Source: Bdellovibrionota bacterium (GTDB lineage: Bacteria > Bdellovibrionota > Bdellovibrionia > Bdellovibrionales > JAEYZS01). From it: a stretch of DNA of 64,000 nucleotides. Below are positions 7,739 through 42,104 of this stretch, one piece after another. The notes below the pieces were generated by a model. It did not search any database and was not told the origin of the DNA. It worked only from the letters and a program-made list of their open reading frames with translations. The stretch covers positions 18,556 to 82,555 of the forward strand of contig JAZKEU010000011.1 in the NCBI GenBank assembly GCA_040386775.1. The letters are read 5' to 3'. Position numbers and translations under genes: made by a program. The first letter of the stretch is position 1; each line of letters starts with the position of its first letter.

Positions 7739-8698
7739 TTAATTGATTGGCAAGACATCTAAATCTTTAGGTCGAATTTTTCTGACTTCTTCTGGAATGC
7801 TTTTAACGATGGCTTCACCTAGAGCCTCAATAAGATTATTCTTATAGTGTTCGCGTCGATATATTAACCCCACCTCCCTTGCAGGGATCGGACGCTCAAA
7901 AGGAATGAGTTGTGTGTGATCTCCGATCGTATTCGATGCAAGCTCTGGCAGAAGCGTATACCCACCATAAGATTCCACAAGATTCTTGAGAGTTTCCAAA
8001 CTCCCACTTTCAAATTTAAATTTCCGATTTTCATCTTTAAAATTTTTAGAGGAGCAAATATCTAGAACTTGATGTCTCATGCAATGTCCCTCTGCCAAGA
8101 GCCAAATGTCTTCCCGTCTTAAAGCAGAGTATTTGATCTTTTTAGATTGAGCATAAGGATGAGATTTCTTACAGAGAAGCGAAAAGGTCTCGTAGTACAG
8201 AGGCAACTCAAACATTTTTGGTGTTTTAGTTGGTGTTGCTAAAATTCCTACGTCAATTTCATCATTGTCTAGCGCTGCTATAATTTGATCTGTTTGCAGC
8301 TCCATGATTTTCAAATTGAGCTGAGGAAATTTCTTTTCTAAAACTGGTAAAAGCTTTGGAAGTAAATAAGGAGCAATTGTGGGAATCACTCCTAAAAGCA
8401 ATTCCCCTTTGATTACGCCTTTTTCATTGGTTTGAATTATTCCTTCGATTTTTTTGACTTCAAAAAGAATGGATTGGATTTGTTCTACTAATTTTTCTCC
8501 GACCTCGGTGAGTAGAATCGGTTTCTTGGAGCGATCAAATATTATAATACCCAAATCCTCTTCCATTTTTTGGATCTGCATACTGAGTGTCGGTTGAGTC
8601 ACAAAACAGGCTTCGGCGGCCTTAGCAAAATGCCCAAATTTGTGCACCGCCATCACATATTCCATCTGCGTTATAGAGAAGGTCAATTTGGTATTCAT
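7739..8698 (-). CDS. oxyR: Peroxide-sensing LysR-family regulator OxyR
   Basis: Transcription factor of 319 residues. An N-terminal LysR winged helix (residues 7-65, with FAKAAEACFVTQPTLSMQI) is followed by the substrate-binding-type sensor domain. Cys206 and Cys215 in GHCMRHQVLDIC match the nine-residue spacing and context of the redox pair Cys199/Cys208 in E. coli OxyR, so disulfide-based peroxide sensing is expected. It is transcribed away from ahpC, with a shared intergenic region carrying an OxyR-type half-site pair. This divergent arrangement supports direct control of ahpCF and probably autoregulation. Confidence 0.95.
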   Translation of the reverse strand: MNTKLTFSITQMEYVMAVHKFGHFAKAAEACFVTQPTLSMQIQKMEEDLGIIIFDRSKKPILLTEVGEKLVEQIQSILFEVKKIEGIIQTNEKGVIKGELLLGVIPTIAPYLLPKLLPVLEKKFPQLNLKIMELQTDQIIAALDNDEIDVGILATPTKTPKMFELPLYYETFSLLCKKSHPYAQSKKIKYSALRREDIWLLAEGHCMRHQVLDICSSKNFKDENRKFKFESGSLETLKNLVESYGGYTLLPELASNTIGDHTQLIPFERPIPAREVGLIYRREHYKNNLIEALGEAIVKSIPEEVRKIRPKDLDVLPIN

Positions 8699-8722
8699 AA
8701 GTCCTCCGAATCACTAGTAATT

Positions 8723-8753
8723 TTGACACTCTATCATAATAGATAAAATCTAT
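8723..8753 (+). promoter_or_regulatory. ahpC promoter with OxyR-type site
   Basis: A TTGACA -35 box (8723-8728) is followed 15 bases later by TAAAAT (8744-8749). Within this, ATAG-N7-CTAT occurs exactly (8739-8742 and 8750-8753), which is one half of the E. coli OxyR consensus of four such elements. A further CTAT lies at 8731 but at the wrong spacing. The short spacer suggests a promoter that needs activation. The assignment is inferred from position between oxyR and ahpC. Confidence 0.65.
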
Positions 8754-8858
8754 CAACTTTAATTAATTATCGATTTCACAATGCCAGGCAGATACCGTAA
8801 AGTAAGTACTTATACAAAGGACTTTCCTAAAAGTCTTAACCAACACCCGGAGGAATAC

Positions 8859-9425
8859 ATGTCTACAATTATCAATAGCCAAATCCCAGCGTTTAAAGCT
8901 CAAGCTTATCACAAAGGTGATTTCGTAACTGTTACAGAAAAAGATTTAAAAGGAAAATGGTCTATCTTTTTCTTCTACCCTGCTGACTTCACATTCGTTT
9001 GCCCAACTGAATTGGGTGACATGGCAGATAAATACGCTGAATTCCAAAAGATGGGCGTAGAAATTTACAGCGTAAGTACAGACACTCATTTCACGCACAA
9101 AGCATGGCATGACACTTCAGAAACAATCAAAAAAATTAAATACCCAATGCTAGCAGATCCAACAGCTCACTTAGCAAAAGCTTTCGGCGTGTACATTGAG
9201 GACGCAGGTTTGGCTTATCGCGGAACATTCCTTGTAAACCCAGAAGGACAAATTAAAGTTGCAGAACTTCATGACAACGGAATCGGAAGAAATGCGGATG
9301 AATTACTTCGCAAGACCCAAGCGGCACAATTCATTGCAAAGAACCCAAGTGAAGTTTGCCCAGCAAAATGGACTCCAGGAGCAAAAACACTGAAGCCAGG
9401 ATTAGACCTAGTAGGCAAAATTTAA
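8859..9425 (+). CDS. ahpC: Alkyl hydroperoxide reductase subunit C (typical 2-Cys peroxiredoxin)
   Basis: Peroxiredoxin that reduces H2O2, organic peroxides and peroxynitrite in the cytoplasm, using electrons from AhpF. Peroxidatic Cys48 lies in FTFVCPTEL and resolving Cys167 in PSEVCPAKW. The length of 188 residues matches the family. The start at 8859 is chosen because CCGGAGG lies five bases upstream and the protein then begins MSTIINSQIPAF like known AhpC; the upstream ATG at 8781 would add an unrelated leader. It is followed by a strong hairpin and then ahpF, with OxyR control likely. Confidence 0.97.
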   Translation: MSTIINSQIPAFKAQAYHKGDFVTVTEKDLKGKWSIFFFYPADFTFVCPTELGDMADKYAEFQKMGVEIYSVSTDTHFTHKAWHDTSETIKKIKYPMLADPTAHLAKAFGVYIEDAGLAYRGTFLVNPEGQIKVAELHDNGIGRNADELLRKTQAAQFIAKNPSEVCPAKWTPGAKTLKPGLDLVGKI

Positions 9426-9536
9426 ACAGCCGATAACAAGGCCGACCGAAATCATTTTAAAAATGAATTTCATCGGCCTCGTTAGCTAGGAAATCAGGCC
9501 AACTTTAGAACCGTCTCTTTAAATTTTCGGCTGTTT
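9424..9536 (+). promoter_or_regulatory. Nested hairpin between ahpC and ahpF
   Basis: The inner stem pairs 9435-9460 with 9461-9483. It includes AAGGCCGA against TCGGCCT, then GAAAT against ATTTC, with a bulge and one mismatch. An outer perfect ten-base inverted repeat, AAACAGCCGA (9424-9433) and TCGGCTGTTT (9527-9536), encloses it. It is not followed by a uridine run, so it looks like an attenuation, processing or stability element. It could keep AhpC in excess over AhpF. Confidence 0.65.
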
Positions 9537-9563
9537 ATATTAACTATTTTCGCGGAGGCTCTT

Positions 9564-11120
9564 ATGTTAGACCAAGATTTAAAAGACCAACTCAAAACAG
9601 TATTTGCTCCGCTAGAAAATAACGTAGAACTTGTTTACAGTGAGTCCGAAGCGGATCAAAATGAATTGGTAGAAATGCTTAACGGCATTGCAGAAACCAA
9701 TGCTAAAATTATCGCAAAATCATCTGGTCAAAAAACAAAGTCTCCAGAATTTCATATTGAATACAAAAATAAGCATACAGGAATTACTTTTAAAGCAATC
9801 CCCGGTGGACATGAATTCACCTCTCTTATCCTTGCGATCTTAAATGCAGACGGTAAAGGAAAGTTGCCGGAAGAATTTATCGCCAACAGAATCAAGAGAT
9901 TAAAAAAACCAATTCACATAAAAACCTATATGTCACTGGAGTGCGAGAACTGCCCCGATGTGGTTCAAACTCTGAATCAAATTGCACTTATTCATGGTGA
10001 TTTTAAACATGACATTATCGATGGTGGATACCACCAAGACGAAGTGAAATCCCTCAGCATTCAAGGTGTGCCTAGCTTGATCGTCGACGGAAATTTAATT
10101 CACTCAGGTAGAATTAAACTTATCGATTTATTAGAAAAATTAGAAGAAACCTTTGGCGTGGATGAATCCAAAGCCAAAAGCGAAGTCTTGAAAAAAGATT
10201 TAGGAAAATTCGATGTTGTTGTTATCGGCGGTGGCCCCGCAGGTGCTTCAGCCGCGATCTACACCGTTAGAAAAGGTCTCAAGACTGCCATGATCACCGA
10301 GAAAATCGGCGGTCAAGTTTCCGAGACAAAAGGAATCGAAAACCTAACTTCTGTCATATACACCGAGGGACCTCAACTTGCCGCTCAACTCACTCAGCAC
10401 GTCGCTGCATATCCAATTGAACTTTTAGAAAACAGAAGAGTAAAAAGTATCGGACAAGGTGCTGATAAAAAAATTGAACTAGAGAGTGGCGAATACTTAA
10501 CCGCAAATTCCATCATCGTTACAACAGGAGCAAAGTGGCGCGAGCTCGGTGTTCCTGGTGAGAAAGAATTCATGGGCAAAGGCGTCGCCTACTGCCCGCA
10601 TTGCGATGGACCATTCTACAAAGGTAAAAAAGTTGCCGTTGTGGGCGGAGGAAATTCTGGTGTGGAAGCTGCAATAGATTTAGCCGGAATCGTGAAAGAG
10701 GTGGTGCTCTTTGAATACAACGATACATTAAAAGCAGATCAAATTTTGGTAGATAAGTTAAAATCACTTCCCAATGTTTCAATCATCACCAGTGCTCAAA
10801 CAAAAGAGATCGCCGGCGACGGAAAAAAAGTAACATCGCTGAATTATATAAATAGGAAAACAGAAAAATTAGAAGAAATGCCTTTAGACGGGGTGTTCAT
10901 TCAAATCGGGCTAGTGCCGAACAGCCAATTTTTGAAAGATACTGTGGAACTTACCAAGTTTGGTGAAATTGTAGTGGATGGAAAAGGAAGAACCTCTGTC
11001 AAAGGCATCTATGCCGCAGGAGACGTAACAACGACTCCATACAAACAAATCATCATCGCCATGGGCGAAGGTGCAAAAGCTGCCCTCGCCGCATTCGAAG
11101 ACAGAATGTATGCTCATTGA
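9564..11120 (+). CDS. ahpF: Alkyl hydroperoxide reductase subunit F
   Basis: NADH-dependent flavin disulfide reductase that recycles oxidised AhpC. The N-terminal tandem thioredoxin folds carry Cys127-x-x-Cys130 (ECENCPDV). The FAD motif [13 protein letters not shown] opens the reductase part, the redox pair is Cys344/Cys347 in YCPHCDG, the NAD motif is [14 protein letters not shown], and the FAD-closing block is [10 protein letters not shown]. The length of 518 residues is usual for AhpF. The ribosome site is GGAGG, eight bases before the ATG. It lies 138 bases after ahpC across a strong hairpin, probably as one regulated unit. It ends one base from the convergent neighbouring gene, without an obvious terminator. 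Confidence 0.97.
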
Positions 11121-11841: not shown

Positions 11842-13143
11842 ATGGCCGATAAGAAAAGCATGGACGCTTTCAAAAAATTATCCAGTCACAATTCCCTAAA
11901 TATTAATGAGCTCATAAAATATGCTCGTCAATATTCTAATTTTTATAAGGAACTCCATAAAAATCTTCCCGATATCGCTCCCCTCGAAATATTTCCACTC
12001 ACACCAAGTGAAAAGTTTTGGGAATCGAACAAGTCCACCAAAAATACGTTACTCACGGGTCCACAGGATGATGGAATTTTACTTCGCAGTGGAGGCACGA
12101 CTGGCAATCCAAAATTTTCTGTATATTCCAAACTCGAATGGGAAATATGCACGCAACTCGCCGGTGAAAAATTTGGCTTAAGCCATATTGAGAGCAAGGA
12201 CCGTGTGGCCAATCTATTTTTTGCTGGCGGTCTATACGGCTCATATCTTTTTGCTACTAGAATTTTAGAGCTATGTCCTATTGACGTGGTTCATTTGCCT
12301 ATCGCCGGACACACTTCGAATCAAGAAATGGGTGAAATTCTAGAACAATTTAAACCCAATGTTTTAATGGGAGTACCTGGTACGATCATTGGTTTGGCTG
12401 ATCACCTTCGAAAAAACAAAATGGATGGTTCCTACATCAAAAAAATATTTTTTGCCGGAGATTTTTTCTTTAGTGATCAAGAAAATTTGGTTAAATCTAT
12501 TTTTAAAAATGCAGCAATTTATCCGATCAGTTATGCAAGCTCTGACGCCGGACTGATTGGTTATCATGATAAAACTTGCGGTAAAGACGAATACAGATCC
12601 ATTGATGATTACATTCACGTCGAAATACTGGATGAGCATACCCTAAAAAATATTGATGTCCCTGGCAAAGAAGGAATTATCGTCATTACCAATTTATTCA
12701 GAAAATTGATGCCTATCATTCGTTATCCAGCTGGGGACCGTGGGATGTGGGTGGAAAACACCACAGGCAAAGACCGCAAATTTAAGCTGCTAGGTCGCAG
12801 TGATGAAGCGGCAAGAGCAGGTGGCATAAAATTTTATGTCAGTGAAGTTCGAAACCTTTTAAATACATATAAAAATAAAATTCAATTCGTCGATTTTCAG
12901 ATGATCCTCGAACACAAAAATCTTAAAGACCACCTCACGATAAAGATAGCGACACTTTCCGCACCAAAGACTCATGAAAAATATGAAAAAGAAATCATCA
13001 GTCAACTCATAAACTCAAGGCCAAAAACAGAAATATTAGAGGCCCAAAATATTTGTATTCTTATAGAGTGGGTGCTGCCTGAGCATTTAATTACCAGCCT
13101 AAAAACCGGTAAAATTAAACGAGTCATTGATCAGAGAGAATAG
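11842..13143 (+). CDS. PaaK-like adenylate-forming ligase, cassette A
   Basis: ANL-superfamily enzyme of 433 residues. It is expected to activate a carboxylic acid as acyl-AMP and pass it to CoA or a carrier. The ATP-binding P-loop SGGTTGNPK is at residues 83-91, the adenylate motif YASSDAGLIGY in the middle, GDRG and LLGRSDEA mark the hinge, and a C-terminal catalytic lysine (Lys424) lies in TGKIKR. It resembles phenylacetate-CoA ligase in size and motif style. The substrate is unknown. About half of the residues match the cassette B ligase at 16999. It is followed after five bases by the acyltransferase gene, so the two are surely cotranscribed. Confidence 0.85.
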   Translation: MADKKSMDAFKKLSSHNSLNINELIKYARQYSNFYKELHKNLPDIAPLEIFPLTPSEKFWESNKSTKNTLLTGPQDDGILLRSGGTTGNPKFSVYSKLEWEICTQLAGEKFGLSHIESKDRVANLFFAGGLYGSYLFATRILELCPIDVVHLPIAGHTSNQEMGEILEQFKPNVLMGVPGTIIGLADHLRKNKMDGSYIKKIFFAGDFFFSDQENLVKSIFKNAAIYPISYASSDAGLIGYHDKTCGKDEYRSIDDYIHVEILDEHTLKNIDVPGKEGIIVITNLFRKLMPIIRYPAGDRGMWVENTTGKDRKFKLLGRSDEAARAGGIKFYVSEVRNLLNTYKNKIQFVDFQMILEHKNLKDHLTIKIATLSAPKTHEKYEKEIISQLINSRPKTEILEAQNICILIEWVLPEHLITSLKTGKIKRVIDQRE

Positions 13144-13148
13144 TATTT

Positions 13149-13853
13149 ATGAATAAAAAACTGGAACAATTAAAATATATTATTCTTCCTGGGAAATTTC
13201 CGAATGATCCTATTGCACAGGATTTGCACAATAAATCTTTTTTGTACTGGAAAAATTTTTGGAATAAAATTTTTGAAGAAAAAAAATTAAATCACCAAGT
13301 ACTCGCAGACAATCTTTGGCGCCAAGACCTTATTGGGCTTATTATTAACGACAATGAAATTGTAGGACAGATTTTTTATTCTTTTTTTAATCTCAAAAGC
13401 CTCACCTCTAACAATCACTCCTACTTGATCAATAACTATACGGAAGATTTTTTTGCCAGGCTCAAAGAACAAGGCATTACTAATTTTATGACTATGGAAT
13501 CCATCGGAATAGCTCCGCACTGGCGCAAAAACCAATCTGGAGTTCCTATGTCGGCAGTCATATTCAGTTTAGCCTGTGAACACTTGAAGCAATTTGAGAA
13601 TGAAGTTTTAATTGGTGCTGCAAGAAAAAATTCTGTGGTACCCTCCGTACTCAAACAGCTGGGTGCAGAGGCATTGATCACCGATATTGATCTCTATGAC
13701 GAGCCAGCCGAACTTATTGCTATTTTTAGAAAGAATATCAAAGTTTACCCTGATTCGGCAGTACCACTTCTCTCCAAAAAACTATGGAATCAAAGACAAG
13801 ATTTATCTCAAGACACGCCAATGCTAAAAGTGAAGAAAAAGAGTGCGGCTTAA
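13149..13853 (+). CDS. GNAT/FeeM-like N-acyltransferase, cassette A
   Basis: Protein of 234 residues, most like the GNAT fold by eye. A strand pair (LIGLIINDNEIVGQIFYSFF) is followed about 60 residues later by MESIGIAPHWRKNQSGVP and a long helix, which corresponds to the acyl-CoA pyrophosphate-binding motif. The acidic residue just before IAP and the order of elements recall FeeM/LuxI-type acyltransferases, but the classical LuxI residue set is not complete. It would take the acyl group activated by the ligase. It overlaps the convergent HDO gene by four bases. It is a clear paralogue of 18337-19029. Confidence 0.6.
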   Translation: MNKKLEQLKYIILPGKFPNDPIAQDLHNKSFLYWKNFWNKIFEEKKLNHQVLADNLWRQDLIGLIINDNEIVGQIFYSFFNLKSLTSNNHSYLINNYTEDFFARLKEQGITNFMTMESIGIAPHWRKNQSGVPMSAVIFSLACEHLKQFENEVLIGAARKNSVVPSVLKQLGAEALITDIDLYDEPAELIAIFRKNIKVYPDSAVPLLSKKLWNQRQDLSQDTPMLKVKKKSAA

Positions 13854-14482
13854 ATTTTTTGTATCGAGTTTAATATTTGAGTATAGAGCATTGCACTTTG
13901 CCTTAAGCTATCGCGAAAAGCTTGTAACTCTTCTCTCGTGAGTCCCATTAACAATTTGAGACCTTCTTCATAGTGCCCGACATCTTCTTCTGAATGAATT
14001 CTCAAGAATCTTCCAGCTTGTTCCCCATGGGTTTCTGCCACGATCTTATAAGCTCTCGCTGCTTCTTGAGAAGCAATGCCTTCCAACAAAAATGCATAAC
14101 CCAATTGAGCTGCCGGACTAACGTGCTCTATAAAGTAATATTGATTTTGATAAAATACTTTTGTTTCTGGAAGTTCTACAAAACTCTTAATAGATAGACC
14201 CATGTGCTTTAAATCATCTAAAGCCAATAAATCATGTGCAGATTCACCATTAAGAAACCCTAAGGCTTGATACTGCCTTTCTCGATTTTTCACTCCCCAA
14301 TGCGCAGCCATTAAAGCAATAAAACACGTAGTGTGTCTCACATAATAGTATGTTTGAGCTAGCCATTGACTGTAGTGGTTCTTATCATTCCAGGGGAATT
14401 GATGAAATATCTTGCCTACGGCTTTTACCGTTTGGCCCAGTTCATTTATAGTCGATTGCAAGTCGTTTTCTACTGACTTCAT
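13850..14482 (-). CDS. Haem-oxygenase-like diiron oxidase (HDO), cassette A
   Basis: All-helical protein of 210 residues of the iron-containing redox enzyme/TenA-like group. The metal-site pattern expected for HDO enzymes is present: Glu80-x-x-His83 (GESAHD), Glu134 (FLLEG), and His163..Asp167-x-x-His170 (IHSEEDVGH). Family members perform N-oxygenation, C-C cleavage or desaturation on amino- or fatty-acid-derived substrates. Here it follows the PAS-like gene after five bases and is in the XRE operon. In cassette B the homologue is on the opposite strand, in the ligase operon. The reaction cannot be predicted. Confidence 0.8.
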   Translation of the reverse strand: MKSVENDLQSTINELGQTVKAVGKIFHQFPWNDKNHYSQWLAQTYYYVRHTTCFIALMAAHWGVKNRERQYQALGFLNGESAHDLLALDDLKHMGLSIKSFVELPETKVFYQNQYYFIEHVSPAAQLGYAFLLEGIASQEAARAYKIVAETHGEQAGRFLRIHSEEDVGHYEEGLKLLMGLTREELQAFRDSLRQSAMLYTQILNSIQKI

Positions 14483-14487
14483 GGATA

Positions 14488-15189
14488 TTATGTTTTAACT
14501 AAGGAACCGTGTTCTGGAATTTTAAAAGTATGTAAAAATCCACCAACAGAACCATCGATACGATACAAACGACACATTAGCGCCGATTGCATTTTGATCC
14601 ATATTTTTTTGTTCGAAAAAATTTCTTCTGCGTAATGAACAGGGAAATTTGGCGTGTATACACCGCTGATTTCTCCTGAAAGAATTTGAGACACGGTTTC
14701 AGAAATTCTTTTAAAAACGAAACTATCTCTCGTAAACAGATCCATCCACGTAAAGCAAAAAATTTCGCTAAACGAGTAACTCATATATCTATACAATTCC
14801 AGAGATCTGAATATCTGAATAGAGGCAGCATCGTAGACCTCAATCATATCTTTTTCATCAATTTTATCAAAAAGATCATCAGGAGGTAGCAATCCCATAC
14901 TTCTCATGGAGAACCATGCATACTTACGGTTGTCGCCGATGAGATCAATTTTACTTGCAGAGGCTTCCATCAGCTGGGTGGAGTAAGTTTTCATAACCGT
15001 TAGAATCTCGAGTTGTTTCTCTAGACTCAATGAAAGAAACTTTTCAACACCGATGGTATTATAAGATTCAATTTGTATATTGTATGCCGAAACCATATTC
15101 GAAAGTTCTACACAGTAATTTAGAAAAATCGGAAGAGTTTCTGTAGATACTCTTCCTTTTGGTACCTTTATAGACATATTGATTTCCAT
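14488..15189 (-). CDS. PAS-like sensor protein, cassette A
   Basis: Protein of 233 residues with no confident family. Residues about 120-225 look like a PAS fold. The segment SYSFSEIFCFTWMDLFTRD matches the usual Y-S-x-x-E-L...W..L..RD pattern, and the terminal strands (IWIKMQSALMCRLYRIDGSVGGFLHTF) resemble the last PAS hairpin. The N-terminal 110 residues are helical. There is no output domain, so it may work with the XRE protein encoded 25 bases upstream. GGAG lies before the ATG. The paralogue is at 19656-20360. A role in ligand sensing is inferred. Confidence 0.6.
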   Translation of the reverse strand: MEINMSIKVPKGRVSTETLPIFLNYCVELSNMVSAYNIQIESYNTIGVEKFLSLSLEKQLEILTVMKTYSTQLMEASASKIDLIGDNRKYAWFSMRSMGLLPPDDLFDKIDEKDMIEVYDAASIQIFRSLELYRYMSYSFSEIFCFTWMDLFTRDSFVFKRISETVSQILSGEISGVYTPNFPVHYAEEIFSNKKIWIKMQSALMCRLYRIDGSVGGFLHTFKIPEHGSLVKT

Positions 15190-15214
15190 AAAGTTTCTCC
15201 TTCAAGTGAAATAT

Positions 15215-15484
15215 TTATTTAGTTTTTTTACTAAAAATACTTCTTTTAAAAAAATCTAAATGTATCGCAGTCATTACGCTGTAAAATTCCTTAGGTGAAA
15301 TTTTATAAATTTCAACGATTTTCCTAAGTGCTTCCAAAGGCGGAGATGATACTCCTCTTTCCCAATTTGCGACAAATTGCGAACTGTAATCTAGCTCTTT
15401 GGCAACTTGAACTTGGGTTAATTTACGTTGAATACGTTTCTGGCGCAAAAAAATTCCTAACTCTGTAAATGATATATTATCCAT
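15215..15484 (-). CDS. XRE-family regulator, cassette A
   Basis: DNA-binding protein of 89 residues. The helix-turn-helix at about 12-65 contains LTQVQVAKELDYSSQFVANWERGVSSPP, typical of the Cro/C1 group. A short basic tail follows, with no ligand domain. First gene of an operon with the PAS-like and HDO genes. No clear Shine-Dalgarno is seen; the bases before the ATG (GGCCC in mRNA sense) are conserved in cassette B. It probably binds the conserved block just upstream and controls its own cassette. Confidence 0.9.
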   Translation of the reverse strand: MDNISFTELGIFLRQKRIQRKLTQVQVAKELDYSSQFVANWERGVSSPPLEALRKIVEIYKISPKEFYSVMTAIHLDFFKRSIFSKKTK

Positions 15485-15518
15485 GGGCCAATATTACCAC
15501 GATTCTAATATTTATCAA

Positions 15519-15548
15519 TTGTCATAATTCTAACATGGAAGAAATACC
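15519..15548 (-). promoter_or_regulatory. Conserved operator-like block upstream of cassette A XRE gene
   Basis: Contains TGTC-N8-AACA (15520-15535), followed on the + strand by ATGGAAGAAATACC. In this 30-base block, 22 positions match the block at 20709-20738 in cassette B, although the surrounding non-coding sequence has diverged. This suggests a binding site for the XRE proteins or a shared promoter element. Confidence 0.5.
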
Positions 15549-15690
15549 TTATATGTACTCTACAAGATAGAAATAGCATTTTTGTTTAAATCTGAGTATT
15601 TTTAATATTATACAAATTTTATTAAAACAAAACTGTCCATTATTTTTACAGTTCTAAATACATCCTTCGTGCCAGAGAGTTAATTTTTAA

Positions 15691-16908
15691 TTAATCTACA
15701 TAATCTAAGTTCTTATGAAAGGATTCTTTTAGATAAAAAAGTGGACCGATAGAAAGAACTATTGTCAAAATACCAACAAAAAGCCCTGCCATCATTATTC
15801 CCTGATTTGCCTTGAGATAAACAAACAACATGGAAAGTGGAATGAGTGTGGCTCTACCAAAATTAGTAATTGCCGTCGTGGCTGTAGCGCGAATGTTTGT
15901 GCCAAATTGCTCTGCTGCAACTTGAACAAATATTGCCCAGTAGCCACTCGCAATTCCCATGTAGACACAAAAAATATAAAACATACGACTAGAAATATCT
16001 TTTAAGAAAAAATAACCAATAATTCCAGAAGAAGAGAGTATCATAAAAATAATTAAGGCTTTTATTCTGCTTTTTAAAACCTGACTGACCAATGCACTCA
16101 AGAATCCACCAACTATAACTCCAATATAACAATAAAAAATAGATTCTCCAGCAACTATATCTTTACTGATACCTAAACTCGAAGTGAATTCCGGGGATAA
16201 CGTTATCAATATTCCCATGATGTACCAGAGCTGAATTGCCACAAGAATGCAGGCCAAAAATTTATAGAATCTTTCTTTGTGCGTAAAGAGAGACAAAATA
16301 TCTCCACGCCGAGCTGGTGATTGCTCTACTTTTTTAAAAAGCTCTGATTCTAAAATTTTTACTCTGAGTAAGAGCAAGGAAATCCCCATCACCCCACCAA
16401 TAATATACGCCGTACGCCAATCAAAATGCTTTGCAATCGGCCACGCCAAAAGAGCGCCAGACATTCCAATCGTCGCAATTGCCATAGTACCATAACTTCT
16501 TTTTTCTTTAGGTAAGAGTTCTGAAACAAGCGTAATACCAATTCCCAATTCTCCAGCAAGCCCAAACCCTGCGATAAATCGTAAAATCGCGTAAGAAGTT
16601 ACGTCCTGAACAAAAGCATTTAAAAACGTTGCCAGAGAGTACATCAAGATAGAACCTAACAATACTTTGAGACGCCCTTTTTTATCGGCCCAAACTCCAA
16701 AAAAAACTCCACCCAGTAACATTCCTGCCATCTGAATATTCAAAAGCAAAAGACCTTGATCTAAAATCTCTGCTTCATTTAAGCCTAAGTCTTTTAAACT
16801 GGGCACTCTCACGACACTGAATAATATTAGATCGTATATGTCGACAAAGTAACCCAAGGCCGCCACAGCAATTGTTAAAATAACTTTATAATCTTTTTTT
16901 GTTTCCAT
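15691..16908 (-). CDS. Major facilitator superfamily transporter
   Basis: Inner-membrane protein of 405 residues with about 12 hydrophobic helices. The loop 2-3 motif GVWADKKGRLKVL and the first helix (GYFVDIYDLILFSV, with charged Asp) are like those of metabolite:H+ symporter and sugar/organic-acid transporters of the MFS. It lies between the two cassettes, reads toward cassette A, and is divergent from the cassette B ligase across 90 bases. It may therefore export or import the cassette product or precursor, but this is from location only. No duplicate exists for the other cassette. Confidence 0.9.
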   Translation of the reverse strand: METKKDYKVILTIAVAALGYFVDIYDLILFSVVRVPSLKDLGLNEAEILDQGLLLLNIQMAGMLLGGVFFGVWADKKGRLKVLLGSILMYSLATFLNAFVQDVTSYAILRFIAGFGLAGELGIGITLVSELLPKEKRSYGTMAIATIGMSGALLAWPIAKHFDWRTAYIIGGVMGISLLLLRVKILESELFKKVEQSPARRGDILSLFTHKERFYKFLACILVAIQLWYIMGILITLSPEFTSSLGISKDIVAGESIFYCYIGVIVGGFLSALVSQVLKSRIKALIIFMILSSSGIIGYFFLKDISSRMFYIFCVYMGIASGYWAIFVQVAAEQFGTNIRATATTAITNFGRATLIPLSMLFVYLKANQGIMMAGLFVGILTIVLSIGPLFYLKESFHKNLDYVD

Positions 16909-16964
16909 AATATTATGCTAAATTTGATTGCATCCTATGTCTAGCTACAAAATGAATTTAAATT

Positions 16965-16976
16965 TAACAATTGTTA
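16965..16976. promoter_or_regulatory. Palindrome in the MFS/ligase B divergent promoter
   Basis: TAACAATTGTTA is a perfect 12-base palindrome in the 90-base divergent region between the MFS gene and the cassette B ligase. It could be an operator for either direction. AT-rich palindromes this short can arise by chance. Confidence 0.35.
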
Positions 16977-16998
16977 TTGAATATCCGATAAAATAAAC

Positions 16999-18315
16999 AT
17001 GAGTAAGGCTTTAAAAATTCAACCTCCACAGGTGTCGTCTTCAATCGAAGGAATACTATCTCCCCAAGAACTTATCCACTTTGTACGAAAGCATTCTCCG
17101 TTCTATAAAAGTTTGTATCAAGATCTTCCTGACATTCTCCAACTCAAAGATCTTCCTCTTACCCCACAAGATGCTTTTTGGACTGCTAATACTCTGCCCA
17201 ATAGCAAAGTTCTGACCTCAAACCTGACCAATGGACTAGTTCTCCGCAGTGGTGGGACGACAGGAAATCCTAAATTCTCCGCCTTCACACACGCAGAGTG
17301 GAAAATCTATACTGAAACAACGGGAGAAGGATTTGCGAAAGGCGCAATTGATTCCGGAGACGTCCTTGCGAATCTCTTTCCTGTTGGAAATATGTATGGA
17401 TCATTTATCTTCACGACAAGATATCTAGAATCCTGCCCTACAAATGTTGTTCAACTCCCTATTGCATCCCACATAGAGCTTTCAGAAATTCCACAAATTC
17501 TCCAAGAATTCCAAGCCAATGCAATTGCAAGTGTTCCAACCACACTTATGAATTTTGCAGAGCATATTAAGAAAAATTCTCTGGACTTCAATTTCCATCA
17601 AATTAAAAAAATATTTTTTGCAGGCGAGCCTCTTTTTGAGGATCAGAGAAAAAGATTAAAAGAAATTTTTCCTGATGCTCAAGTATTTTCTATAGGCTAT
17701 GCCAGTGTCGATGCCGGAATGTTAGGCTACGCGGATCGTACATGCAAAGTTAATGAGCACCGTGTTTTCAGTCAACATACTGTCATAGAAATTATTGATG
17801 AAAAGACTCATGAAGTTATAGAAAAAGAAAATCAAGAAGGCTTAATTGTTGTCACCAACCTTTATAGAAAACTTATGCCTATTGTTCGATACCCTGTTGG
17901 AGACAGAGGAATGTGGGTCGAGAAAAAAGGAAATCCAGACCGAAAATTCAAATTGCTAGGAAGATCCGAAGAGGCCGCTTGCGTTGGGGGCGTTAAATTT
18001 TATGTTCATGATGTGAGAACTTTATTAGAAGCTTACCGGGAAAAACTTCAGATTGTTGATTTCCAACTGCTGACGCTACATCAGAGCAAGAGAGATTGTC
18101 TTGTTATCAAAATAGCAAGCCGCCTGCCCTCTCAAAAGCTGCACCAACATTCTCAAGAAATTATAAATGAACTCATACGCGTCCGCCCACTTTATACTGA
18201 AATAATTCAAGAAGGAGGGATCGAACCTCTCCAAATAGAATGGATTACTCCAGATCAATTAGAGATTAATCCAAGAACAGGAAAGTTGCGTAGAGTATCT
18301 GACAAACGAATTTAA
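16999..18315 (+). CDS. PaaK-like adenylate-forming ligase, cassette B
   Basis: ANL-superfamily ligase of 438 residues, paralogue of 11842-13143. The P-loop SGGTTGNPK is at 84-92, followed by YASVDAGMLGY, the hinge block KLLGRSEEA and the catalytic lysine Lys429 in TGKLRR. The catalytic positions are kept while the middle (substrate-pocket) region differs from copy A, so the two may activate different acids. It leads an operon with the acyltransferase (21-base gap) and the HDO gene (18-base gap). Confidence 0.85.
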   Translation: MSKALKIQPPQVSSSIEGILSPQELIHFVRKHSPFYKSLYQDLPDILQLKDLPLTPQDAFWTANTLPNSKVLTSNLTNGLVLRSGGTTGNPKFSAFTHAEWKIYTETTGEGFAKGAIDSGDVLANLFPVGNMYGSFIFTTRYLESCPTNVVQLPIASHIELSEIPQILQEFQANAIASVPTTLMNFAEHIKKNSLDFNFHQIKKIFFAGEPLFEDQRKRLKEIFPDAQVFSIGYASVDAGMLGYADRTCKVNEHRVFSQHTVIEIIDEKTHEVIEKENQEGLIVVTNLYRKLMPIVRYPVGDRGMWVEKKGNPDRKFKLLGRSEEAACVGGVKFYVHDVRTLLEAYREKLQIVDFQLLTLHQSKRDCLVIKIASRLPSQKLHQHSQEIINELIRVRPLYTEIIQEGGIEPLQIEWITPDQLEINPRTGKLRRVSDKRI

Positions 18316-18336
18316 ATTAAGGACAAGGTTACGGCC

Positions 18337-19029
18337 ATGATTAAAAATACAAATCATTTGAAATACATTATAATTTCAGGAAAATTTCCAGAGGATCAGA
18401 GCTTGCACGCTTTACACAATAAAGCTTTTCTCTATTGGAAAAATTTTTGGAACAATATTTTTAAAGAAAATGGAACGGATGACACCGTTAATGCTGATCA
18501 TTTCTGGAGACAAGATCTCGTCACACTTCTTATGGATGGAGACGAGATCGCAGGACAACATCTTTACAGTTTCTTCCATCTCAAAAGCCTTGCTTCCAAA
18601 AATCATAGCTACTTTGTCGAAGGTTTTAACGAAGAATACTTTGTACAACTCAATCAGCGCAAAGGATCTACGGTGATGTCTGTAGAATATCTTGCTGTAG
18701 CTCCTGACTGGAGAAAAAAGAACTGCGGAGTCTCTCTGGGTACAGTGCTGATTGGATTGGCTTGCCAGCATCAGAAGCTTCATAATATAAGCGTATTAAC
18801 GGCTCCTTCCCGTGTCGATGTCAAGGTAGACAGGATGGTGGCAGAACATGGTGGCGAAGTGATTGTAGGTGGCTTAGAAATGCACAATACACCTGTTAGT
18901 CTAATGGCTATCTTCAGAGAAAAAACTAAGGTTCATGATGATTTGAGTATCAGCTCATTAATTGATAGGCTCTGGAATGAACGCACAGATTATACTTCTG
19001 TCAAAGAAAAGCAAAAAATTGCAGCTTAA
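18337..19029 (+). CDS. GNAT/FeeM-like N-acyltransferase, cassette B
   Basis: Protein of 230 residues, paralogue of 13149-13853. Shared landmarks are the N-terminal FLYWKNFWN block, a WRQDL block, the strand pair ending GQHLYSFFHLKSL, and VEYLAVAPDWRKKNCGVSLG, the likely acyl-donor loop. The C-terminus is lysine-rich and less conserved. It is expected to transfer the acyl group made by the cassette B ligase. Acceptor and product are unknown, and the GNAT assignment is by motif shape only. Confidence 0.6.
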   Translation: MIKNTNHLKYIIISGKFPEDQSLHALHNKAFLYWKNFWNNIFKENGTDDTVNADHFWRQDLVTLLMDGDEIAGQHLYSFFHLKSLASKNHSYFVEGFNEEYFVQLNQRKGSTVMSVEYLAVAPDWRKKNCGVSLGTVLIGLACQHQKLHNISVLTAPSRVDVKVDRMVAEHGGEVIVGGLEMHNTPVSLMAIFREKTKVHDDLSISSLIDRLWNERTDYTSVKEKQKIAA

Positions 19030-19047
19030 GCCTAGTGATAAGGAATT

Positions 19048-19659
19048 ATGGATATAAAAACTGAACTCCACATGTTGATAGAAAAAGTTGGAAATGAATT
19101 TGAAAATTTCCCTTGGGAAGATAAAAAGGCTTATGGTCATTGGCTGGCTCAAACTTATTATTTTGTAAGGCACACAACTTGTTTTTTAGCTTTGACCGCC
19201 AGTCGCTGGGGAGTTAAAAATCGGACTCAGCAGTATCGAGCCCTTAAACATTTAAAAGAAGAATCTTCCCATGACTTGTTACTTTTGAATGATCTTGAAG
19301 CAATAAAAGACTCTATCAATAACCATACGGAAAGACCAGAAACCCAAGCCTTCTATCAAACACAATATTATTGGATCGAGCACGAAACTCCTGCCGCACA
19401 CTGGGGATACGCTTATCTCTTAGAGGGTTTGGCTTCCAAAAAAGCTCTGATGGCATACAATAGAATCATTAAAGCACACGGAAACAGTACGGCTTCATTC
19501 TTAAAGACCCACGCTGAAGAAGACTCAACCCATTTTGAGGAAGGCCTAAAGAATTTGGAGCATCTTAATAAATATGAAATGGATTGTTTTAGAGATTGTC
19601 TGAGGCAGGCGGCAATGCTTTATCTCCAGATTTTATCTGGATACAAAACGAAATCTTAA
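19048..19659 (+). CDS. Haem-oxygenase-like diiron oxidase (HDO), cassette B
   Basis: Protein of 203 residues, close paralogue of 13850-14482. The presumed metal ligands are all kept: Glu72-x-x-His75, Glu126, and His155..Asp159-x-x-His162. Long stretches such as HWLAQTYYFVRHTTCF and WGVKNR are nearly the same in both copies, making this the best-conserved enzyme of the pair. Here it is third in the ligase operon and overlaps the convergent PAS-like gene by four bases, whereas in cassette A it is on the other strand. Confidence 0.82.
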   Translation: MDIKTELHMLIEKVGNEFENFPWEDKKAYGHWLAQTYYFVRHTTCFLALTASRWGVKNRTQQYRALKHLKEESSHDLLLLNDLEAIKDSINNHTERPETQAFYQTQYYWIEHETPAAHWGYAYLLEGLASKKALMAYNRIIKAHGNSTASFLKTHAEEDSTHFEEGLKNLEHLNKYEMDCFRDCLRQAAMLYLQILSGYKTKS

Positions 19660-20360
19660 GTACTAGATTTTTCTGAACCGTAATTTACAATTTCAAAAAC
19701 GTTTATAAAACCTGCTCGAGAGCCGTCTGCTCTATTCAATGGAGCCATAAGTCTGTGCTTCATTTCTATCCAGTGCTTAGAAACTGAGAATTTTTCTTTT
19801 ACGATATGATTAGGCATATTCGTCAGATAGACGTCGTTACCTTTTCCAGATAATACCTCATTTGAAGCGTTCAGCATTCTTTGCCCAACAAAACTATCTC
19901 TTTCAAAGAGTTCCATCCACGGAAAACAAAACAATTCGCTAAACGAATAGCTAATGTGATTGTACAATTCAAAGCTACGAAACAGCTGAAGCGAGCTCAC
20001 ATCATAAATTTCAATGATATCTGTAGGAGAAATTTTATCGAATAAATCTTTTGAAGGAACAAATCCCAATCCAGTCAAGGAGGACCATGCATGAAGACGA
20101 CCATCGCTGCGCATTTCTATTTTTTTCAAAGAAGCTTCGGTAAGTTGCTGGAGATAACTCTTTAAAGAATTTAGAATTTCGAATTGTTGGCTTAAATCTA
20201 AAGAAATGAATTTATTAATTCCAACTGAATTGTATGGTACCATCTTGATGTTGTAAGCGGTTGTGATAAGCGCCAATTCTTCGCAGAATCTCATGAATAT
20301 TGGCAAGGTTTGTTCGAAAAGATAGAGTCCGTTTTTCTTATGATTTAAATCTAATTCCAT
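19656..20360 (-). CDS. PAS-like sensor protein, cassette B
   Basis: Protein of 234 residues, paralogue of 14488-15189. The PAS-like block SYSFSELFCFPWMELFERD and the terminal hairpin (HRLMAPLNRADGSRAGFINVFEI) are conserved. The N-terminal region keeps the SLSL/SLDL..QQ/KQ-EIL pattern and similar helices. It lies 30 bases after the XRE gene in the same operon. The family is not recognised; a cytoplasmic ligand sensor working with the XRE protein is the simplest inference. Confidence 0.6.
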   Translation of the reverse strand: MELDLNHKKNGLYLFEQTLPIFMRFCEELALITTAYNIKMVPYNSVGINKFISLDLSQQFEILNSLKSYLQQLTEASLKKIEMRSDGRLHAWSSLTGLGFVPSKDLFDKISPTDIIEIYDVSSLQLFRSFELYNHISYSFSELFCFPWMELFERDSFVGQRMLNASNEVLSGKGNDVYLTNMPNHIVKEKFSVSKHWIEMKHRLMAPLNRADGSRAGFINVFEIVNYGSEKSST

Positions 20361-20390
20361 TTTATTTAAATTCCTTTTAAGCTAGTCATA

Positions 20391-20672
20391 TTACTTGTTT
20401 TTATTTTTAGACTTTTTAGAAAAAATATTTCTCTTCCAATAATCTTGTTGAATCTCATTTATCGTATGAGAGAAATCTCTTAAATTAATGCTATACATGT
20501 CTATAACTTGTCTTAGAACTTCCAATGGCGGCGAAGACACCCCTCGCTCCCAATTCGCAATAAATTGAGACGTATAGCCCAAGGACTTTGCCACTTGAAC
20601 TTGAGTTAACTTCTTACTCAATCTCTTTTCTCTAAGATACTTACCTAATTCTAAAAATGATGTTTGATCCAT
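20391..20672 (-). CDS. XRE-family regulator, cassette B
   Basis: DNA-binding protein of 93 residues. Its helix-turn-helix (about 12-65) is very close to copy A; the stretch ANWERGVSSPPLE is identical and the recognition helix differs slightly (SLGYTSQFI against ELDYSSQFV). It has a lysine-rich tail. Near-identical recognition residues mean that cross-regulation between the cassettes is possible. Confidence 0.9.
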   Translation of the reverse strand: MDQTSFLELGKYLREKRLSKKLTQVQVAKSLGYTSQFIANWERGVSSPPLEVLRQVIDMYSINLRDFSHTINEIQQDYWKRNIFSKKSKNKNK

Positions 20673-20908: not shown

Positions 20909-22012
20909 TTATTCAATAGTTTCGATGGAAGCCTCTAAAACCATTTTTGCGGAATCTTTACTGCAATTATCTGAAGATTTTCTAGGCTTACATTGAGCGC
21001 TGACAATAATTCCTTGAATAGAAAAACCATCTAATGATTTTTGCATGGATTCACAATAATTATCACTTGTCCATGTTTTGCTAGTACACAATCTCTTTGG
21101 AGTAGATTTAAAATGTGCCGAAGTATTTTTCTGTACCGCTAACGAGTATAGCAAACTATAAAGAGAACCATCTGAAGTGTAAGAAGTTAATATTTGTACT
21201 TGAGGAGATGATAGTGCTCTCAGTGCATTGCTATGGCGTCCAATTTCATGTGGAAGCTCTTCATACTTTACAGTTGAAGCTACACCTTCAACTCGAGTTG
21301 AGGTTTTGCAAGTAAGATAGCCGGGCTTAGAAGTTAAATCAGGTTCCCCTACAATAAATGAATCAACAACTCTACATAAAGTGTACCCCGATTCTTTGCA
21401 TAACTTCAGAGCTTCCTTAATAGAGAGGGCAAAGCCTCTTTGGCAACGCGAAACATGAGGCATAGATGGTACAGGAAGTATATAAGACGAGACAGAAGCA
21501 TCGAAATATTTATTTTTACTAGAATCTACTTTGAGTAAGTTGGAGATATTGTAACTAGAATCATCAAAAAGTCTTGAATAGTTATTTGGCCCAAAAGCTT
21601 TCAACTCTTCCTTATAAAAACCAAATGCAACTCCTAAAAGTTCATGAATGGCTAAAGCTTGCCTATCGAATTTTGACAAATTATCCCAAGCAGCTTCATT
21701 GACACGAATCAAAAACTTTGAAGGATCATTTACAGCCTCTTTACTAACCCCTTTGATATAGAGCGGTTGATCTGTGAATTCTATAACAATTTTTTTGATA
21801 ACTTCTTCAACCTCGCCATCCGCGATAGTAGTTAATTTGTTCACTGTACTTGAACCATCTTCTGCTCTACCAATTATATTCAGGCGTGCCCATCCCAAAT
21901 GAACTGCCTCTGCGAATTCTTGTTCTTTTGTATCTCCCCCACCTCTATCTTTTTCTGCAAAGGCAGAAAATCCTGTGCATGCAATTAAAATTGCAGTTAT
22001 TAAATTTTTCAT
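20909..22012 (-). CDS. Secreted protein of unknown function paired with TIGR02147 regulator
   Basis: Protein of 367 residues with a signal peptide (MKNLITAILIACTGFSAFA). The mature N-terminus has EKDRGGGDTKEQEF, and a later LAIHELLGVAFGF segment carries His and Glu reminiscent of a short metal-binding helix, although a full HExxH motif is absent. The C-terminal part has many cysteines, probably paired in the periplasm. Its start overlaps the stop of the upstream regulator gene (ATGA), so the two are translationally coupled. Such pairs of a TIGR02147 protein with a secreted protein are a Bdellovibrionota habit; the function is unknown. Confidence 0.8.
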   Translation of the reverse strand: MKNLITAILIACTGFSAFAEKDRGGGDTKEQEFAEAVHLGWARLNIIGRAEDGSSTVNKLTTIADGEVEEVIKKIVIEFTDQPLYIKGVSKEAVNDPSKFLIRVNEAAWDNLSKFDRQALAIHELLGVAFGFYKEELKAFGPNNYSRLFDDSSYNISNLLKVDSSKNKYFDASVSSYILPVPSMPHVSRCQRGFALSIKEALKLCKESGYTLCRVVDSFIVGEPDLTSKPGYLTCKTSTRVEGVASTVKYEELPHEIGRHSNALRALSSPQVQILTSYTSDGSLYSLLYSLAVQKNTSAHFKSTPKRLCTSKTWTSDNYCESMQKSLDGFSIQGIIVSAQCKPRKSSDNCSKDSAKMVLEASIETIE

Positions 22013-22800
22013 TTTGTTCTCCTTTTATTTTTTTTAATAATTTTATTTGTTGTTTCTAATTTAGTAATTGGAAATAGCGATACGGAAATTTGATATACAT
22101 GTTCGGAGGCAATATTTTTTCTTTGGAAAAATGCCGCTAAATTGTGTCGAAATTCAGTTATAAGTTCTTTTGCTTTCTTAAGGTCTTTGGCATTTCCACA
22201 GACCATCATGGAAGTATGATCTCGTTCGGTCCTTGGAAGATCTTCTAAGGCTTTCATGGATTTTTCTAGAATTTGCATTTGATATTTTCTCATGGCAGCC
22301 GAAGAAAAATCGGAATCGAGAGTATTGGAGTTAAATCTTGATTTATCTAACCACTGTCCGTTGGGCGCAATTTCTAAAAGTTCCAATCTACATAATCTTT
22401 CCGCGGCCGCGCGCACTTGATTTACGCTAATATCTAAAGTTTTAGCGATCCAAGTGAAATCTGGATTGAAATTTTTAATTCGCGTGAGCTCCAGAATAGC
22501 ATCATGATACCAATCAGAAGTGGCTGCAAATAGATCTTGAGTAAATTCTGCATACAACTCGTTAGTGGATTTTTGAGATATGTAATTCTGCAATTCATCA
22601 GGTGAGAGACTGAGTTTAGTTCCTAATTTTTTGATTGTTTTTTCGGTTATAGGTCGTTTTTGAGAAATTATGGAAGAAAGGGTCGCGGGATCAATATCAA
22701 GTTGTTTTGCGAAAGATCTTAATGAATAGCTCGGGTTTCTCTCGCATCTCTTAATGAGTTCTGATTGTAGCATTAACCGAAAATTGATTTTGTTTTCCAT
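22009..22800 (-). CDS. TIGR02147-family regulator
   Basis: Protein of 263 residues with two likely DNA-binding parts. An N-terminal XRE-like helix-turn-helix has SLRSFAKQLDIDPATLSSIISQKRPIT, and a winged-helix-like middle has FTWIAKTLDISVNQVRAAAERLCRLELLEI. The C-terminal domain (DUF4423-like) carries the typical HTSMMV segment. This architecture is TIGR02147, a family frequent in Bdellovibrio and Fibrobacter. A perfect inverted repeat lies about 42 bases upstream of its start and is a likely autoregulatory site. Confidence 0.85.
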   Translation of the reverse strand: MENKINFRLMLQSELIKRCERNPSYSLRSFAKQLDIDPATLSSIISQKRPITEKTIKKLGTKLSLSPDELQNYISQKSTNELYAEFTQDLFAATSDWYHDAILELTRIKNFNPDFTWIAKTLDISVNQVRAAAERLCRLELLEIAPNGQWLDKSRFNSNTLDSDFSSAAMRKYQMQILEKSMKALEDLPRTERDHTSMMVCGNAKDLKKAKELITEFRHNLAAFFQRKNIASEHVYQISVSLFPITKLETTNKIIKKNKRRTK

Positions 22801-38096: not shown

Positions 38097-41000
38097 TTAC
38101 TGCCCTCCGCATGTAACAGATTGCCCTGCAAAGTCTAGTAAAGCACCACTTACACCACCGATTCCAGAAGAAATTATATCATTTGATAGATTATTTAAAG
38201 TTGCTGCTCCCGGCGCTCTCCCTATTACTCCAAACGGTACCTGTAAATAATTTGCTGCTCCAATTCCTAGCGCTCCTCCACCAGCTCCTGCCATAGCTGA
38301 TGCTATTATACTAGAGTAATTTAATTGAGCAACGCTTGACCCAGATGCAATTTGGTTAGCAGCGCTTGATACCGCACCGATTATTGCTCCAGCAGCAATT
38401 CCCGCACCCATTGTAGTACCAGAAACTGCGCCAGCACCTGCCCCAATAGCAGCACCTTGCCATGTACCGCTAACAGCATAGCCAGACGCACCTCCAATTA
38501 AGGCACCTATTACGGCTCCAGCAAATTTTCCATCGGGATCAATAAAATTCACAGGGTCGTTAAAAGTATATCCCATCAAGTTCGTATCGCCGCCGCTGAA
38601 TCTAATTGGATCCTTACTTGTCCATCTTCCTATTTCTGGATCATACGTTCTCGCGCCGAACTTCACTAGTCTTGTGTCTTCGTCGTAGATTCCGCCGGCG
38701 AAGCCGAAGGGTTGGTAGCCGGGGTTTGTGTCGGTGATTACTCTTCCGAATTCATCGTGTTCCATTTTTTGCATCACTGTTCCGTCGGATTCTCGCAGGA
38801 CTAATCTCACTGATCCTAGGTGATCTGTGACAATTCGGTATTTCACGTTCGCATTGTCTACAAAATAATCTGGAGAGTGAGCTTTGCTTGCATATACGAA
38901 TCTCTTTGTGACTATGCCTGATGTATTGATTTCTCCAATCAATCTATTATTCACGTCGTAAGCAAATCTTTTTTGCAAGACGCTATTCACTTTTCTTCCA
39001 ATTCTTCTACCGAGAGCATCCATCTCGTAATTGATTGTCTTTGTCGGAGTCACAGCGCCCGTCATATTCCCGTATACATCATAACTGTATGACGTTGTTG
39101 CGATTCCAGTTCTGGATAACATTTCGCCATTCGCATTGTATGTGTAAGTTAAACTTTTGTACGCCAGCAATCTATCCTGATCATCATAGACTGCTGTGAT
39201 GGGCGATCCATCAGCTCCGCCATTTCTGTTGGAGTTTTCATCATAACTGTATGTAGAGGCTACGATACCGTTCTTCTTTGTAAGCTCAAGCCTTCCGGTA
39301 TTGTCGTACTCATATTCAAAAACCGTAGTCACTCCATCTAGAGTTTCTGTTTTCTTTGTGATTCTACCAAGTAAATCTCTTTCAAATGAGAGGCTGTAGA
39401 CTGCATTAGAATTTCTATTGAGACTGTATGCAGAAAGCTCTCCGTATGTTGGATCGTATGTTCTCTCATCATTAATACTTCCAAGTGTTGTCGTAGACAA
39501 TTGGCCATTTGGAGCACTGTAAGTTAAAGACAAATCTCCGGCTTGCGATAGATACTCATCGTTATCGTAGGTGTAGTTGATATTGATGGAGTTTGATGCG
39601 CTTAAGTACTCAGCGTTGAGTTGTGAGTTTTGTGATGTTCCTAGAGAGAAATTATAAATGGTGCTTGTCGGAGAAATTCTAACACTTTGTCCTGACAAAA
39701 CTCCACCACTGTAACTCAACTCCACTCTAGAATTATCTGGAGCAATTACTTTTGTTGGTAAACTTATGTTATTTGAAAGTTGCCCATACTCGTAAGTATA
39801 TACACCATTCGGAGCAGTGACACTCTCAAGCCGTCCAGAAGATGCACCATAATTATAATCGAGAGCTTGCCCATCAGGTCTTGTCACCGAAGTTAATTGA
39901 TTATCGATATTATAACCATACAATGTGCTCACCTGAGGAATTGATGAAAGCACTGGAGGATTGTAATGAGAGACTTTTTCATTAGCACCGATTGTCATAG
40001 TGTGAGCGGGTCTTGATGGCGGCGTGATTGATGTTAAATTCCTATTGCCATCATAGGTGTAGTTGATCTCTCTTAAATCCGGCAGTCTGATTTTGATAAG
40101 TCTTTCGGTGGCATCATAGACGTAATTTGTAGATTGATTGAGAGCGTTTGTTACGGTCTTTAGAACCTTCGTAATCATGTTGTAAGTGAAAGTTGTCGTA
40201 CGAGTGCCTTGAGTGATTTGCGTGAGCTTTTCGTCTGTATAAGTCATCTCGACAGGATTGAGATTTCCCTGCCTGATGCTGATAGGACGTTGATAATCGT
40301 CGATTACTGATTCTGTTGTTTTGCCGAGTTGTGTTGTTGTTACCGTGGTTTTGGTTGAGCCTGTGTATACTGATGTTACAGGAAATTGAGACTGGTATCC
40401 TACGGTTTGAGTTCTCGTCCATGTATTGATTGAGAATGGATCGCTAGGATTAGTGAGAGTAATGTTGTTATTGAAATTTTTTACTCTTTGACCCAACATT
40501 TGCTCAACTGTACTAGACACATGGTTTGAAGTACCACCAAATCTTGTGTTGTTGATCGTATAGTTTACCAATTGGCTTGATCCATTATGTGAGTATTTCT
40601 GAGATGTATTGCCAGAATATTCTGACAAATATTTTGATCCGTCGGCTCTTAATTCTTCTTGCTTAGAGTAATTATCATAGCTATCGACAGACATAAGATC
40701 TTGGCGATTCATCCCTGTTGCTGACGACACAACAAAAGACCCATTTGGATTAGATGTCTTTGCTAGATTTATTTGCCTTCCACCAGAGTGAGCATCATTA
40801 GTAAGGTTTCCGTAATTATCATATGTAAAAGAACTTAAAAAATTCCCAGGTTTTTTGAAACTTGCAAGAAGGCCACCAGCTCCGTAATAAGTCATCGTTT
40901 GGACCTGGAACTTTGGATCTCTGACCGTTGCGAGATAGCCATCAGAGTTCAAAGTTACGTTCGTGACTCTACCATTTGGTGATACTATAAAACTAAATTT

Positions 41001-41900: not shown

Positions 41901-42104
41901 CAATAACTCCTTAATCAAAAATATGAATCCGTTTATTTAACGGACAAAGCTTACTTTTATTGAATTTATAAAAATTAAAATAAACAAATTTAGTTGAAAG
42001 TCGTGAGAAATATCTTTAACGCAAGACGAACATGATGCATTTATTGTTTAAATAGTAAACACATCAAAATAATTATGTATTTTTTGATAAATTTAGCTTT
42101 AGTT

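Follow-up and report, generated by a model that had tools for sequence, protein, structure and literature searches.

What is the function of a block of genes for an acid ligase, an acyltransferase, an oxidase, a presumed sensor, and a small regulator that is present twice, in diverged form, in a single contig of a Bdellovibrionota bacterium? The question is raised by positions 11842 to 20672 of a stretch of 64,000 nucleotides from contig JAZKEU010000011.1 (assembly GCA_040386775.1), referred to here as the window, in which the two copies, located at 11842-15484 and 16999-20672, are separated by a gene for a transporter of the major facilitator superfamily (MFS). The genes of the block are designated A (PaaK-like ligase), B (acyltransferase), C (heme-oxygenase-like diiron oxidase, HDO), D (PAS-like protein), and E (regulator of the XRE family), with the number of the copy added. 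A first-pass annotation of the window considered all five genes a unit that makes and senses a small acylated molecule. The conserved unit proved to be B-C-D, often accompanied by E, i.e., acyltransferase, HDO, PAS-fold protein, and XRE regulator. The best single reading is that of a signalling module, specific to Bdellovibrionota, for making, modifying, and sensing an acylated small molecule, and it is held here with somewhat less than even confidence.

The composition of the unit emerges from profile searches of 197 Bdellovibrionota genomes, of which 105 contain a match to B, 118 to C, and 101 to D. C is located within 1.5 kb of B at 107 of the 136 B loci (about 0.1% by chance), and in 92 of these 107 cases C follows B on one strand, the median gap being 37 bp. 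Among the loci for which D is listed as well, most (42/59) have it downstream of B-C in the convergent orientation. The genome group g15 was taken to represent Bdellovibrio, since the locus L032, from a metagenome-assembled genome (MAG) of Bdellovibrio sp. that has this layout, is on the same contig as G131, a member of this group. Outside Bdellovibrio, 20 of the 32 loci with B and D have E at a distance of no more than 300 bp from D, versus none of the 12 in Bdellovibrio. The recurrence expected in the first-pass annotation thus holds for B, C, D, and E, but the ligase lies outside the conserved unit and the XRE gene is not in the neighbourhood of D in Bdellovibrio.

In about a dozen Bdellovibrio genomes the module is found in the same position, between the same neighbouring genes, and its inheritance there is vertical and syntenic. 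Further carriers are a MAG of Bacteriovorax stolpii and two Bdellovibrionota MAGs. Searches of 141 genomes of Myxococcota and 299 of Pseudomonadota gave no B, and no D was found in 200 Pseudomonadota genomes; as a positive control, the B query run in the same way recovered B in the Bdellovibrionota genomes of the three carriers just named. Among the genomes searched, the module is so far restricted to Bdellovibrionota. C alone is not diagnostic of it, as a scan of contigs with C returned mostly HDOs of Streptomyces with no B, D, or E nearby. The genome from which the window derives contains two additional loci, one with B, C, D, and E (C11:114-116 kb) and another with B, D, and E and a gene of the fatty acid desaturase family between B and D (C9:174-177 kb). 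In 24 Bdellovibrio genomes, about 101 matches to D were obtained versus 43 to B. This excess resembles the unpaired LuxR receptors known as LuxR solos, an analogy of numbers that is in itself no proof of reception.

The central enzyme of the unit, B (B1, 13149-13853, and B2, 18337-19029, both on the plus strand), matched no Pfam or NCBIfam family and no PDB sequence in profile searches. An identity as xanthine phosphoribosyltransferase was rejected, the matches spanning 35 residues only. The AlphaFold2 model of B2, based on 40 homologues, has a mean predicted local distance difference test score (pLDDT) of 94.8. In a Foldseek search of the PDB with this model, the top nine matches were FeeM (2g0b) and four synthases of acyl-homoserine lactones (AHL), LasI (1ro5), EsaI (1kzf), BjaI (5w8c), and MesI, with E-values from 3.5e-6 to 1e-5, and RpaI (6wn0) was present further down the list. 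FeeM is the best fold match (E-value 3.5e-6, template modelling score, TM-score, 0.53-0.65), at about 10% identity and with no match to a family profile. The GNAT/FeeM-like character ascribed to the protein in the first-pass annotation is therefore supported by the model, and the relationship of B to FeeM and the LuxI-type synthases is one of predicted fold. No member of the B family matches Autoind_synth (PF00765) at E-values up to 0.1, and this profile has no match in the genome of the window and two weak partial matches only among 148 relatives. Trp34, Arg58, Tyr92, Arg159, and Trp213 of B are kept in at least 36 of the 40 homologues, and Glu117 in 32; from our reading of the alignment, Glu117 presumably lies on the strand where LuxI enzymes carry their Glu.

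The HDO genes, C1 (13850-14482, minus strand) and C2 (19048-19659, plus strand), both match PF14518 (1.6e-12 and 1.4e-9, respectively). Seven residues, Glu72, His75, Asp82, Glu126, His155, Asp159, and His162, are invariant in 38 homologues, and the ligand pattern of HDOs comprises three His and three (or four) carboxylates (PMC13108848). Asp82 or another residue may be an optional seventh ligand. With a full ligand set and a match to the heme oxygenase fold, C is a true HDO with intact ligands, as had been proposed. Its nearest solved relatives in a profile search of the PDB are the heme-oxygenase-fold protein 3dde (2.6e-19) and MboA (9ypi, 3e-7), the latter an acetylenase (PMC13185094).

The presumed sensors are encoded by D1 (14488-15189) and D2 (19656-20360), both on the minus strand. 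In the AlphaFold2 model of D2 (mean pLDDT 93.2) an N-terminal helical part is followed by a C-terminal PAS domain, and PAS/LOV structures fill the top of the list of its PDB matches, at a probability of about 1 and an E-value of only 2.6e-3; the PAS-like nature of D claimed at first pass is thereby supported. Within the D family of 65 members, three show weak matches to PAS_9 and one a weak match to Autoind_bind (PF03472, E-value 0.012), and no helix-turn-helix (HTH) domain was found in any of the members scanned. Judged from these profiles, D is not a LuxR autoinducer receptor, a protein expected to combine Autoind_bind with a LuxR-type HTH. The small regulators E1 (15215-15484) and E2 (20391-20672), also on the minus strand, are assigned to the XRE family by HTH_3 (PF01381; 1e-13 and 4.6e-11, respectively). 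Non-recurrence and the lack of a suitable fold had been named as findings that would speak against the first-pass proposal; for the four-gene set, recurrence and suitable folds were found.

A further feature of the module is the C-terminal Ala-Ala of many of its enzymes. In a set reduced to less than 60% identity, this ending was counted in 19/37 proteins of B and 17/36 of C, versus 11 of 516 other genes of at least 150 amino acids (p = 9e-18 for B and 1e-15 for C); none of the 60 D and 28 E proteins has this ending. In the window it is present in B1 (KKKSAA, 13830-13853) and B2 (KQKIAA, 19009-19029). As the residues before the tail are unalignable and the B model is of low confidence there, it is the Ala-Ala ending itself that seems to be kept. 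The transfer-messenger RNA of this genome encodes the tag DNNYALAA, and ClpX is present. The nearest precedent is sigma-AntA of antimycin biosynthesis, in which Ala-Ala is present in 67 of 71 orthologues and which is a ClpXP substrate through that tail (PMC7142297). The ssrA-like ending suggests a regulated destruction of B and C, probably as substrates of ClpXP, by which synthesis could be shut off fast.

The ligase has a different history. A1 (11842-13143, plus strand) matches NCBIfam TIGR02155 (3.3e-22), A2 (16999-18315, plus strand) matches NF041878 (1.1e-22) and PF00501 (2.6e-10), and the common A1/A2 profile matches PaaK in the PDB (9s3l, 1.5e-16). The loop SGGTTGNPK, the motif GDRG, and the C-terminal GKIKRV with its lysine are present, with Asp in place of the usual Glu of the YGxTE-like motif; by profile matches and motifs, A is a true PaaK-like ANL ligase, in agreement with the first description. 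The same description held that the middle regions of the two ligases differ and that the two may handle different acids. In fact, the two are 42-52% identical along most of their length, with higher values only at 276-350, which leaves no special divergence in the middle, and substrate ranges are not readable from sequence. The nearest relatives of A (35-44% identity) are found in other Bdellovibrionota, in an operon composed of genes for an MFS transporter, a GNAT protein, LuxE, a LuxC::AMP-ligase fusion, and A. In one such operon (L166), the domains of which were scanned, the fusion protein has about 860 amino acids and is followed by the PaaK-like ligase; at four other loci (L167, L168, L169, and L174) the same LuxC-type operon was recognized from gene sizes and ligase matches. 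The search with a ligase profile placed a ligase beside B only in the genome of the window; the one other ligase within 7 kb of B, at L167, is yet inside its own LuxC-type operon. The five-gene cassette as a unit was therefore rejected and replaced by a four-gene, often three-gene, module, with A, which here stands directly before B without LuxC or LuxE, apparently recruited.

The MFS transporter gene between the copies (15691-16908, minus strand) is nearest to the aromatic acid:H+ symport subfamily (TIGR00895, 6.3e-35, a match below the cut-off), and a homologue of it with 51% identity adjoins B-C-D-E in the MAG of Bacteriovorax stolpii. At other loci B has other neighbours instead of the ligase: a fatty acid desaturase at L146, L176, L179, and, in the genome of the window, L175, an acyl-CoA dehydrogenase 15 bp upstream of B at L137, and a methyltransferase adjoining B at L089 and L105. 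All three are enzymes altering acyl groups or small molecules. It can be added that at three loci with another residue in place of Glu117 of B (L126, L137, and L145) a desaturase-family gene and/or an acyl-CoA dehydrogenase is located nearby and there is no C gene.

The two copies in the window arose from a duplication of the block. The ten open reading frames and their arrangement around the transporter gene are as first annotated, and all five pairs are paralogous in end-to-end alignments, with identities of 49% (A), 42% (B), 56% (C), 48% (D), and 58% (E) and E-values from 1e-148 to 4e-39. In trees with 36-63 homologues the two copies are sisters, with Shimodaira-Hasegawa-like approximate likelihood-ratio test values of 97 for B, 95 for C, and 99 for D, indicating that the block was duplicated as a whole, long ago. 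A point absent from the first-pass annotation is that the HDO genes are on opposite strands. In copy 2, A, B, and C share one strand and are opposed by D and E on the other; since this layout, with B and C together and D and E convergent to them, is the usual one elsewhere, copy 1 represents a single-gene inversion of C, and the stop codon of C1 overlaps that of B1.

In the proposed mechanism, B would use an activated acyl group to acylate an amine, which is probably an amino acid or a derivative of one, and C would oxidise or desaturate the acyl or the amine part of the product or its precursor. D would sense the product or a related state, and E, where present, would turn this sensing into transcription. 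The acyl group would be set by lineage-specific neighbours, elsewhere the desaturase, acyl-CoA dehydrogenase, or methyltransferase, and here the MFS transporter and the PaaK-like ligases, which would import and activate an aromatic or other acid for B. ClpXP would remove B and C fast. A module of this kind may function like LuxI/LuxR without membership of these families. Folds or families, recurrence with its layout, restriction to the lineage, enrichment of the tails, and duplication of the block are shown directly, whereas the reaction and its substrate, the ligand of D, a partnership of D with E, the degradation, and any function between cells are inferred. The proposal that the cassette makes and senses an acylated molecule can be put more strongly than at first pass, and would still have to be worded conditionally.

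Several observations weigh against a signalling module. C is missing at 29 of the 136 B loci, some of them on short contigs, and the link between D and E is not general, since D of Bdellovibrio is not accompanied by E. The cassette does not encode an acyl carrier protein. The altemicidin acyltransferase and generic GNATs are close behind in the Foldseek list of B2, the TM-scores of B with FeeM and the LuxI enzymes, about 0.55, are moderate, and eight of the 40 B homologues (L100, L108, L124, L126, L127, L136, L137, and L145) have Ser, Thr, or Gly in place of the LuxI-like Glu. C1 and C2 of the window are themselves without the Ala-Ala tail. PAS domains sense many things, including redox state, oxygen, light, and ligands, so that to name the product as the cue for D is guesswork. 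Moreover, the sequences preceding the four gene starts compared have no palindrome in common that could serve as a shared XRE operator; there is only ATATTGGCC, directly before both E start codons.

The strongest rival, which has to be considered a real possibility, is a specialised-metabolite cassette yielding an oxidised N-acyl product, such as an antibiotic, a membrane aminolipid, a metallophore, or a prey-directed agent, with D and E regulating it on another cue, e.g., oxygen or redox state. It is from the biosynthesis of natural products that HDOs are best known (PMC13108848), N-acyl amino acids are the products of FeeM-type enzymes, and the accessory genes for a desaturase, a methyltransferase, and a ligase resemble those for the tailoring of metabolites; in addition, PAS domains often sense redox state or oxygen, and C requires oxygen and iron. 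However, the locus is very small, the PAS gene is tied to the module throughout the phylum, D genes exceed B genes in Bdellovibrio, and synthases apparently marked for fast turnover are more in keeping with a signal made in pulses than with a product made in bulk. The same turnover would suit a developmental switch, and it is conceivable, though unlikely, that the product stays in the cell and that D and E form a feedback loop reporting acyl-CoA, iron, or oxygen, for example when the cell passes between the attack phase and growth inside prey. A PAS sensor with an XRE regulator is a typical one-cell switch and the conservation of the cassette does not extend to the MFS transporter, but the enzymes with folds closest to B make diffusible products, and the presence of several paralogous cassettes in one genome is more usual for families of signals. 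A defence or toxin-antitoxin-like locus is very improbable: loci of this kind often contain small XRE regulators, and NCBIfam and PADLOC gave generic HTH matches, but A, B, C, and D have no PADLOC match, the inheritance in Bdellovibrio is vertical and syntenic, and the biosynthetic enzymes are intact.

As a signalling module, B-C-D(-E) can be compared with several known systems. Like LuxI/LuxR, it has a single GNAT-fold synthase adjoining a sensor or regulator, and extra unpaired sensor genes occur in Bdellovibrio; it differs in that B is not a PF00765 protein and forms its own family, in that LuxR is replaced by a PAS protein as the sensor, accompanied by no more than a separate XRE regulator, and in that an HDO belongs to the core. 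An acid fed by a CoA ligase or tailored by a linked enzyme is a likeness to two AHL systems, RpaI/RpaR of R. palustris, in which the synthase requires a CoA ligase and p-coumarate from outside the cell, and the three-gene circuit of Mesorhizobium, in which the linked tailoring gene encodes a crotonase (PMC10470506). FeeM, the best structural match to B, is distant from it in sequence, and no gene for a FeeL-type carrier protein is present here. To our knowledge, FeeM clusters do not carry an HDO or a PAS/XRE pair. C has the Pfam domain and all of the ligands in common with the HDO superfamily (UndA, SznF, BesC, CADD, and MboA), whereas its linkage to acyltransferase and PAS genes sets it apart, and no HDO pathway in the literature covered has this gene set. 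The LuxC/LuxE acyl-reductase operons house the nearest relatives of A, whereas A of the window directly precedes B and is without LuxC and LuxE. In the open-licence literature searched, including that on Bdellovibrio with HDO, acyltransferase, or quorum sensing, no described pathway with the gene set of the module was found.

Directly upstream of the two copies, at 7739-11120, there are genes for a LysR regulator (OxyR-like by sequence), an AhpC-like peroxiredoxin, and an AhpF-like reductase, probably an ordinary oxidative-stress neighbourhood. Adjoining copy 2, at 22009-22800, a regulator with an XRE-type HTH and DUF4423 (PF14394, 2.9e-37) is encoded. Farther along the window are a gene for an RHS/YD-repeat protein of 1273 amino acids (38097-41918) and a region of type II secretion/type IV pilus genes (44965-57389) with two T2SSE and T2SSF, histidine kinases, one of them with CHASE2, and sigma-54 response regulators. 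Scans for promoters and terminators gave results at chance level.

In its most far-reaching form, which we regard as less likely than not, the signalling reading would give the phylum its own quorum-sensing-like language, with a synthase family of the LuxI/FeeM fold confined to it, an HDO finishing the signal, a PAS protein as its receptor, unpaired D proteins as eavesdroppers, destruction tags turning synthesis into pulses, and swappable neighbours setting the acyl group. If the signalling reading is true, the module would combine a synthase and a sensor not named in any family library with a dedicated diiron oxidase, and would provide a new genomic context for HDO chemistry and unusual signal synthases with their own degradation tags. 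It would then constitute a phylum-wide acyl-signal or metabolite system of predatory bacteria, not described before, and a testable candidate for the way in which Bdellovibrio-like predators coordinate or time their life cycle.

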